Shown: in pieces, positions 11,938 to 14,019 of the stretch
Position numbering within the stretch: position 1 is the stretch's first letter
How the letters are laid out: each line of letters opens with the position of its first letter
Assembly: GCA_023263735.1 (NCBI GenBank)
Contig: JALQUQ010000027.1
Span: 1 to 14,315 of the forward strand
DNA: 14,315 nucleotides
Direction: 5' to 3'
Origin: Paracoccaceae bacterium
GTDB taxonomy: Bacteria; Pseudomonadota; Alphaproteobacteria; Rhodobacterales; Rhodobacteraceae
Program-made: the position numbers and the translations under genes
The notes under the pieces: generated by a model
What the model was told of the DNA's origin: nothing
What the model saw: the letters and a program-made list of their open reading frames with translations, nothing else
The model's database searches: none

Positions 11938-12837
11938 ATGAAACAACAGACATTGACCATGCAAGACGCCATTCATACCGCCAAGATGCTGAGCGAAGCC
12001 CTGCCCTACCTTCAGCGCTATTCCGGCGCTGTTGTCGTGGTGAAGTTTGGCGGCAACGCCATGGGCGATGATGATGCGATGGCCGAATTCGCGCGTGACA
12101 TCGTTCTGATGCGCCAGGTGGGGGTGAACCCGGTCGTTGTGCACGGCGGCGGGCCGATGATCAACGACATGCTGAACAAGCTGGGGATCAAGTCGGAATT
12201 CGTGCGCGGCAAGCGTGTGACCGACAAGGCGACGGTCCAGGTTGTCGAGATGATCCTGTCGGGTCTGGTGAACAAGCGGATCGTGCAGGCAATCATGGAT
12301 GCCGGTGGGCGCGCCGTCGGCATCTCGGGCAAGGATGATGACCTCATGGTCTGCGAGGCTGACGATCCCGAATTGGGGTTCGTGGGCCGCCCTATCGAAA
12401 TGAATGTGCAAGTGCTCCGCGATCTTTACAATGCGGGCATCATCCCGGTCATTGCCCCGGTTGGTACGGGCATGGCCGATAACGAAACGTTCAACGTCAA
12501 TGGCGACACGGCTGCCGGTGCCATTGCTGGCGCGTTGCAGGCCGACCGCCTGCTCCTCTTGACCGACGTGCCCGGCGTCAAAGGCCCCGATGGCAATGTG
12601 ATGACCCAGATCACGCCCGAGGAAATTCGCGCCATGATCGCAGACGGCACCATTTCGGGCGGGATGATCCCGAAAACCGAAACGGCGCTGATGGCATTGG
12701 ACAGGGGCACCCGCGCCGTGACCATCCTTGATGGCAAGGTGCCGAATGCGGCCCTGTTGGAATTGTTCACGGACCACGGCGCCGGATCGCAGATCCGCTC
12801 TACCGAACCGCGGGTCAAGCCGCACATCAAACGGTGA
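11938..12837 (+). CDS. argB: Acetylglutamate kinase (N-acetyl-L-glutamate 5-phosphotransferase)
   Basis: Cytoplasmic amino-acid kinase of 299 residues, second step of arginine synthesis, phosphorylating N-acetylglutamate with ATP. KFGGNAM at 36-42 holds the catalytic Lys36, HGGGP at 69-73 binds the substrate phosphate region, and further core motifs are [18 protein letters not shown] and LLTDVPGV. The protein carries an N-terminal extension (about 1-25) before the first strand and an ending of the DHGAGSQI type. In this family these mark the hexameric, arginine-inhibited form, so feedback control by arginine is expected. AGGAGG lies eight bases before the ATG. The stop overlaps the GTG start of the next gene. 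No other arg gene is present in the window. Confidence 0.97.
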
Positions 12838-13490
12838 CTCCGCTCGACATCGCCCAGCGCGTCCAAAGTGACGCGCTGGAGGTTCTGGGCGGCTTTCACC
12901 CGGAGCCGGACGAAGAAGGCTTTCCTTCGACGGCAAGAACCATTCTGCTGCTTGGCCCTGCCGAGCCGGGCTTTTGGCGGCATTTGACCGCACAACCCGA
13001 ATGGCAAGACGGTCAGCCCGACCCGGTGGATCGCTGGTCCCGGCGGGCCATAGGGCGCATAGCCTGTGACCTTGGGGGCAAGGCCTTTTTCCCCTTTGGC
13101 GGCCCGCCCTATCATCCCTTTTACCGTTGGGCCTTGCGATCTGGCACGACATGGGAAAGCCCGGTGCGCCTTTTGGTGCATCAAAGCCAAGGCTTGATGG
13201 TCAGTTTTCGCGGGGCCTTGGCGCTGAAAGATCACATCGACCTTCCCTCGCCTGCAGCGAAACCCTGCGACACCTGCGCCGCGCCCTGCCTGACCGTCTG
13301 CCCAACACATGCACTGGGCGCGGCGGGCTATGATGTTCCGGCCTGCCATGCCCTTTTGGACACGCCACAAGGCCAACCCTGTCTATCCGGTGGATGTCTT
13401 GTTCGACGCGCTTGCCCGGTGTCACAGGCCTATGCAAGACTTCCCGAACAATCGGCCTATCACATGGCGCGATTCCATAAGACGGGGTAA
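12834..13490 (+). CDS. CblC/QueG-core-like protein with C-terminal dicluster ferredoxin domain
   Basis: Protein of 218 residues starting at GTG 12834-12836, which overlaps the argB stop (GTGA). The C-terminal third holds eight cysteines: C-x2-C-x3-C-x3-CP (145, 148, 152, 156), then Cys171, Cys183, Cys188 and Cys194-Pro. This pattern fits two [4Fe-4S] clusters, as in the ferredoxin domain of epoxyqueuosine reductase QueG. The first 140 residues have no cluster motif. By eye they follow human CblC/MMACHC in order: a hydrophobic strand then PGFWRHL (45-51), DPVDR at 63-67 with GR nearby, a His-Pro at 94-95, and a late segment [16 protein letters not shown] before the proline-rich hinge. QueG also combines such a core with a ferredoxin domain, but is about 1.6 times longer. 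Cobalamin binding is thus inferred, not shown. Database annotation is likely to be just 'ferredoxin'. Confidence 0.7.
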
Positions 13491-13515: not shown

Positions 13516-14019
13516 ATGAAGCGGCTGATCCTGACGCGTCACGCGAAATCAAGCTGGGACGACCCACTAACGCCCGACCACGACCGCCCCCTGAACGAAC
13601 GCGGCAAGGCCGCAGCCGCCGATCTGGGCCAATGGCTAGCCAGCCGCGGTTATGTGCCCGATCAGGTTCTGTGTTCTGATGCCGAACGCACGCGAAAAAC
13701 CTTTGCGGGCATTGCCCCCGCCCTTCCCGGCGGTTTGACCATGGACCTAAAGCCCGCCCTGTATCACGCAGGGCCTGATGTGATGCTGGCCGTCTTGCGC
13801 CATGCCGTCGGCGATGTGGTGATGATGATCGGCCATAATCCGGGCATTGCGGAATTTGCGGCGCGACTGGTGGCCAAGGCACCCCAGAACGCGGAATTCA
13901 TGCGCTATCCAACGGGTGCAACGCTTGTGGTCGATTTCAGCATCGACTCGTGGGCCGAGCTTGAGTTTGGCATGGGGACTGTCGACGATTTTATCGTGCC
14001 GCGCGAAATCGCGGCCTAA
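13516..14019 (+). CDS. SixA-like histidine phosphatase family protein
   Basis: Cytoplasmic phosphatase of 167 residues. The RHG-type motif TRHAKSSW carries the phospho-accepting His9 with Arg8, followed by DRPLNERG (23-30), Arg58 in SDAERTR, and the second catalytic histidine His107 in GHNPG. The size matches E. coli SixA (161 residues), which dephosphorylates histidine phosphotransfer proteins. Many relatives act on unknown targets. The ATG is chosen because GGGGAG (13505-13510) lies five bases upstream. The open frame extends further left to 13309 but overlaps the previous gene. It follows that gene's stop by 25 bp, so argB, the Fe-S protein and this gene probably share a transcript. A substrate link with the histidine kinase 11 kb away is not implied. 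Confidence 0.9.
   Translation: MKRLILTRHAKSSWDDPLTPDHDRPLNERGKAAAADLGQWLASRGYVPDQVLCSDAERTRKTFAGIAPALPGGLTMDLKPALYHAGPDVMLAVLRHAVGDVVMMIGHNPGIAEFAARLVAKAPQNAEFMRYPTGATLVVDFSIDSWAELEFGMGTVDDFIVPREIAA

Follow-up and report, generated by a model that had tools for sequence, protein, structure and literature searches.

A bacterial relative of CblC with its own dicluster ferredoxin part, predicted to reduce or supply cobalamin

A coherent family of CblC-ferredoxin proteins

The window, by which we mean the whole stretch of 14,315 nucleotides analysed, carries on its forward strand a gene for a 218-residue protein (12834–13490) with a GTG start, directly behind argB (11938–12837, forward strand). 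The GTG codon (12834–12836) overlaps the argB stop codon TGA (12835–12837) in a four-base overlap, and both the reading frame and its coupling to argB are present as the first-pass annotation had described them. A SixA-like histidine phosphatase gene follows downstream on the same strand (13516–14019; PF00300, E 2.2e-11) and is the next gene in 11 loci of a 50-locus neighbourhood scan, in which the family gene itself was uncalled at 13 of the 50.

Three parts are distinguished along the protein, all encoded on the forward strand. Residues 1–138 (12834–13247) form a CblC/MMACHC-like module that includes P64-x-D66, S109-P110, H116, G120 and the invariant R126. Residues 144–196 (13263–13421) form a QueG-like dicluster ferredoxin part with eight invariant cysteines (C145, C148, C152, C156, C171, C183, C188 and C194) and the invariant R191. 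The C-terminal tail (residues 200–214; 13431–13475) reads RLPEQSAYH in the window protein and YxxxQxx(Y/F)H across the family, matching RYSEEQKAYF of MMACHC.

Searching with the window protein yielded 6388 relatives with E values up to 1e-3. The database names among the best 120 of these are ‘ferredoxin’, ‘epoxyqueuosine reductase’ or hypothetical, in line with the earlier expectation that ordinary annotation hides the protein under ‘ferredoxin’. All eight C-terminal cysteines noted at the outset are there, invariant in a small alignment (20 of 20 members) and in a broad one (98 of 98) that extends to members with approximately 20% identity to the window protein. Among 123 members 121 keep the full set, the exceptions being L125 and a record with a frame break, L181. 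The 20-sequence alignment has 43 invariant columns in common. In the 98-sequence alignment R126 and R191 are invariant (R126 also in 123 of 123 members), P87 and G120 are each found in 97 rows, W48 and P110 in 96, D66 in 92 and P64 in 91, while position 63 is D in 59 of the 98 rows and position 202 is Y in 72 (R in the window protein). With these invariant and near-invariant residues, the sequences are one coherent family rather than a chance arrangement.

Relationship to CblC/MMACHC and QueG

The first-pass annotation had also read the residues ahead of the cysteines as following human MMACHC (CblC) segment by segment, and profile comparison recovers this order above shuffled and reversed controls. 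With hhalign, a 58-member family profile matched the single human MMACHC sequence at a probability of 62 and a score of 30, where 60 shuffles stayed at or below 0.67 and 10.6, with 0.26 and 7.4 for the reversed control; under a second comparison setting the values were 80 and 41 over 30 columns. When the counterpart was a set of 21 vertebrate MMACHC sequences, the 58-member profile reached 86.9 (score 45.6) and the 98-member profile 94.3 (score 55.5), the controls for the latter giving at most 0.6 and 17.9 in 40 column shuffles and 0.21 and 14.6 when reversed. A profile of clade II (described below) matched MMACHC at 96.0 (score 64.7). The N-terminal halves compared on their own gave probabilities of 95–96 (score 52–57; 40 shuffles at most 27), and the C-terminal parts 38–54 (score 24–26; 60 shuffles at most 14.6) over just 15–16 columns, the latter match placing MMACHC RYSEEQKAYF with the family YxxxQxx(Y/F)H after the last cysteine. 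These comparisons support homology of residues ~1–138 to CblC/MMACHC. The individual segments fared unevenly: DPVD, SPVRLLVH and RGALAL are recovered as proposed, whereas the supposed His-Pro near the middle is not, hhalign pairing P91 or P92 with MMACHC P109 instead of H94-P95 with H108-P109.

In a scan of 58 members PF16690 (MMACHC) was hit more often than any other Pfam family, in 20 of them, with E values up to 1 and a best value of 0.0076; its cut-off of 27 bits was reached by no scanned member, and ten members scanned singly scored at most 15.9 bits, six of them matching over the HPxxGxWxAxRG segment. The window protein met no Pfam cut-off and gave no PF16690 match in the Pfam scan. A PF16690 search of 58 genomes found no match, but carries no weight, as its 14 control genomes gave none either.

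Several family residues can be set against the glutathione pocket of MMACHC, in which R161, R206 and R230 form the lining and D77, D80 and Y215 make further contacts (PMC10740964). R126 aligns with R161 in the HPxxGxWxAxRG segment, a residue of the glutathione pocket and not of the cobalamin pocket (PMC10740964, PMC13320084). R191 is probably the equivalent of R206, in a low-confidence stretch of the alignment, and D63, D66 and position 202 may stand opposite D77, D80 and Y215, respectively. The animal protein, a cyanocobalamin reductase and alkylcobalamin dealkylase, resembles the family in its profile over residues ~34–137, in DPxD, in HPxxGxWxAxRG with R161 and in the C-terminal RYSEEQKAYF, but it has no ferredoxin part and none of the eight cysteine ligands; MMACHC uses flavin or glutathione (PMC10740964), where the bacterial family has eight invariant cysteines instead.

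The ferredoxin part presents its eight cysteines as two CP-ended groups in 98 of 98 rows, a pattern that fits two [4Fe-4S] clusters and from which we infer the cluster number, although the window protein reached no Pfam Fer4 cut-off in the Pfam scan. The suggested resemblance to QueG is borne out by TIGR00276 (QueG), which matches 39 of 58 members, and in a PDB profile search the QueG chains 5d08 and 5d6s appear at E 0.003–0.004, behind three generic ferredoxin-type chains. In QueG a similarly spaced dicluster ferredoxin is attached to a B12 module of the nitroreductase type (PMC4646009), an arrangement that the family is predicted to share. The family differs from QueG in falling far under the TIGR00276 cut-off (20.7 bits for the window protein against 200), in lacking the C-terminal domain (just 20–40 residues follow the last CP in the 98-row alignment) and in the CblC-type RG motif of its N-terminal module; the DYH motif, which is specific to QueG (PMC4646009), occurs in just 1 of the 98 rows. 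CblC itself is described as binding cobalamin in a manner similar to QueG but without a ferredoxin domain (PMC4646009).

Genomic context and association with RamA

A quick tree built from 123 members separates clade I (104 rows, mostly Alphaproteobacteria) from clade II (18 rows: family f167, genome G287 and Methylibium); L125 stands by itself on a long branch. From names among the database matches, f167 is probably Mariprofundaceae. Within 1.5 kb of the 123 loci the probes recognised argB at 41, MttB at 12 and other corrinoid genes at 5; nothing was recognised at 65, many of which have short flanks. Every member with argB nearby belongs to the Rhodobacterales clade. Coupling to argB is a feature of that group and tells little about what the protein does. 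When 145 neighbouring proteins from 37 loci were tallied by Pfam family (two at most on either side, without the three Rhodobacterales loci), no common partner emerged, the top families among the 25 listed of 184 being GST (5), the CbiA fold (4) and phosphoribosyltransferase (4).

The orthologue neighbourhoods were checked for cobalamin genes, and family genes do lie in cobalamin-synthesis clusters at three loci from three lineages (G287, a Methylibium plasmid and G410). In G287 the start of the clade II gene lies within the cobS stop codon, in the order cobU-cobT-cobS-[gene], and the gene faces cobO-cobC-cobD-cobQ-btuDCF-cobB-btuB; these names are our own reading, with seven of them supported by resemblance to annotated genes of Methylibium and CobO by PF02572 as well. 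Among the seven genomes of its family G287 alone has a clade II copy. On plasmid RPME01 of Methylibium petroleiphilum the family gene is the last of an annotated cob cluster, following cobS, a histidine phosphatase gene and a 2'-5' RNA ligase gene. The annotated 206-residue gene of this record (L181:14992–15700; ~472442–473150 of RPME01) ends early and the family similarity runs on in another frame, which indicates a frame break in the 3' part, from either a sequencing error or decay of the gene. In G410 (f167) the family gene is followed by cobU and cobT, a context not seen in the other 16 f167 genomes, where the available stretches have mostly 1.2–7 kb flanks.

A second set of neighbours handles methyl transfer. 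An MttB-type corrinoid methyltransferase gene lies directly upstream at 12 of the 123 loci. In f160 this holds for 10 of 11 carrier genomes, and RamA is found 7.0–12.4 kb away on the same contig in all 11. On Sinorhizobium meliloti pSymB and Paracoccus aminovorans plasmid IV the family gene comes immediately behind a gene of the MttB family; a corrinoid protein and DUF1638 are encoded nearby, as is a RamA-like ASKHA protein on plasmid IV. Family matches occur in four further plasmid records. RamA adjoins the family gene at two loci. In G088 the order is family gene, pterin-binding methyltransferase, RamA, and in G287 the clade I gene lies between a methyltransferase (URO-D-like by our reading) with a corrinoid protein and RamA. 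The minus strand of L126:5568–14474 (G287) holds a corrinoid methyltransferase island, where the family gene and RamA accompany methyltransferase-like genes and corrinoid proteins, and near which TRAP-type transporter genes are found (functions by our reading).

The association with RamA extends to whole genomes. Of 289 genomes of the class 73 gave a match and 60 were kept as carriers at E ≤2.1e-13, some being fragments; the 13 dropped matches had E values of 9.9e-6 to 5.6e-4, 12 of them in frames of 304–447 residues, and were taken as QueG or other ferredoxins. CobO is present in 43 of 60 carriers and in 64 of 229 others. RamA (PF14574) is present in 44 of 60 carriers versus 12 among 100 non-carriers chosen for the scan, an odds ratio of 20 (p 3e-15); kinship was ignored, and as the genomes are not independent the p-values overstate this co-occurrence. 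The 100 comprise all 64 CobO-positive non-carriers and 36 of the 66 with a MetH domain but without CobO, the 99 with neither having been left out of the RamA scan; one of the 12 RamA-positive non-carriers, G077, is a fragment with a stop. Restricting the comparison to CobO-positive genomes gave RamA in 36 of 43 carriers versus 12 of 64 non-carriers, again with kinship ignored. No RamA match was found in 16 of the 60 carriers, the window's own genome (85.8% complete) among them.

A second set, of 60 genomes, gave RamA in 11 of 11 carriers and none of 3 non-carriers of f160. For the window's own family it was found in all 15 new carriers and in two of the four non-carriers (G493 and G577). Three of the latter four are uncertain as non-carriers, the calls resting on an E cut-off of 1e-15 and G444 alone being negative also with a sharper profile. 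Elsewhere in this set RamA was found in 4 of 15 f167 genomes, 0 of 2 of f165, the single genome G528 (1 of 1) and 2 of 8 other non-carriers; the window's own genome, included here, had none. Two own-family genomes of genus g227, G444 and G602, have neither a family match nor a RamA match, the family absence in G602 resting on a strict cut-off. No association was found with the MetH activation domain (35 of 60 carriers, 118 of 229 others). It is missing from the four own-family genomes of the 289-genome set, which agrees with the split methionine synthase described for Phaeobacter (PMC5764234).

Proposed function and a possible origin of animal CblC

Taken as a whole, the data are best explained by a bacterial CblC-superfamily protein that brings its own electron relay and is predicted to reduce or supply cobalamin, a reading to which we assign a probability of roughly 0.6. 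Points that weigh against it are the 65 of 123 loci without a recognised neighbour, the absence of a common partner in the Pfam tally, the argB neighbour in Rhodobacterales, the carriers without a RamA match, the scarcity of RamA in f167 and f165, the cobalamin genes at just 1 of 17 f167 genomes, the single clade II copy in the family of G287, the lack of association with the MetH activation domain, and the place of R161 in the glutathione pocket. The relationship to CblC, together with relatives that sit among vitamin B12 genes, suggests that the protein reduces or prepares B12 for B12-requiring enzymes, and the corrinoid gene neighbourhoods and the co-occurrence with RamA lend independent support to the B12 role first proposed from the letters of the window. 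Most likely it is a self-contained cobalamin reductase or processing protein serving corrinoid enzymes such as the Rhodobacterales split methionine synthase. The N-terminal nitroreductase-type module would hold base-off cobalamin in a cleft formed with the C-terminal part, while the two predicted [4Fe-4S] clusters would carry low-potential electrons to cobalt, drawing on a donor in the cell. The upper ligand would be stripped and cob(III)/(II)alamin taken to cob(II)/(I)alamin, the reduced cobalamin then being handed to, or regenerated for, corrinoid-dependent enzymes. A CblC-type module combined with a dicluster ferredoxin is well suited to such stripping, reduction and hand-over. The clients of clade I would be RamA-dependent methyltransferases or the split methionine synthase (Mtg) system, with action before or beside RamA; those of clade II may be the products of cobalamin synthesis and adenosylation genes, in salvage, adenosylation or lower-ligand assembly.

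Methionine synthesis in Rhodobacterales uses a split B12 enzyme, the reactivation of which has been ascribed to a RamA-like protein and DUF1638 (PMC5764234, PMC12478193). The RamA-like (DUF4445/ASKHA) and DUF1638 proteins, whose published role is reactivation from cob(II) to cob(I) (PMC5764234, PMC12478193), are unrelated to the family but occur in the same organisms and, in some lineages, in the same gene clusters. The word ‘ferredoxin’ occurs 0 times in the available text of PMC12478193 and refers to proteins other than the family in that of PMC5764234; the family gene is named in neither of these texts. DUF1638 lies beside MttB, corrinoid-protein and CblC-ferredoxin genes (L183:1825–6339, L182:8627–12663), suggesting that these two unknowns may act together.

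Other readings account for parts of these observations. The protein could be an electron carrier in which the CblC-fold domain serves for docking and which feeds RamA or a corrinoid protein without binding or processing cobalamin; its adjacency to or co-occurrence with RamA would fit, and MMADHC provides a precedent in reusing the CblC fold for protein contact only (PMC4705923). We consider this unlikely, given that the family retains R126, R191 and the P-x-D motif in addition to the ferredoxin, and that neither the members in cobalamin clusters nor those of the RamA-poor f167 (4 of 15) require a RamA partner. Less probable still is a B12/Fe-S enzyme acting on a small non-cobalamin substrate, a reductase in the manner of QueG or of reductive dehalogenases. 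The QueG-like ferredoxin part and the broad spread of the family, with no fixed neighbour outside a few lineages, are compatible with such an enzyme, but the score of 20.7 against the QueG cut-off of 200, the single DYH among 98 rows and the short extension of 20–40 residues past the last CP all argue otherwise, as do recurring neighbours that handle corrinoids. An ordinary ferredoxin tied to arginine synthesis would explain the four-base argB overlap and the gene order kept in Rhodobacterales; we rejected it as highly improbable because argB lies within 1.5 kb only of members in the Rhodobacterales clade (123 members compared), and no Fer4 cut-off was reached while the CblC match stood far above controls.

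A bolder and distinctly tentative proposal is that animal CblC arose from this family by loss of the clusters, the bacterial form being an overlooked B12 reductase or loader widespread in Alphaproteobacteria. The C-terminal part of CblC would then be an eroded ferredoxin domain, with electrons now coming from flavin or glutathione, while the intact bacterial form would serve the RamA-dependent methionine synthase and glycine betaine demethylase. CblC/MMACHC was called eukaryote-only in a 2026 paper (PMC13376404), the available portions of PMC8123684, PMC7733943 and PMC8085122 mention no bacterial CblC, and among the open-licence papers listed we found no description of the family. The parts are of known kinds; their combination, spread and corrinoid linkage appear to be new. 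A widespread bacterial relative with an iron-sulfur relay would give CblC a prokaryotic root, and thousands of proteins named ‘ferredoxin’, ‘epoxyqueuosine reductase’ or hypothetical would be re-labelled. It would also supply a candidate redox partner for the split methionine synthase/glycine betaine demethylase system, which is abundant in marine bacteria and for which the available text of PMC12478193 mentions no partner of this type (abundance: PMC12478193).

The divergent member L125 (L125:3254–4027, genome G116) bears on how such a loss might proceed. It has just C145, C148, C152 and C194 of the eight cysteines and keeps P64, D66, R126, R191, Y202 and Q206. In the classical ferredoxin scheme these four cysteines together ligate a single cluster, and L125, a single long-branch sequence, may be a one-cluster form and a possible intermediate. 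Its four remaining cysteines, retained together with the pocket residues, suggest how a cluster-free animal form might have arisen.
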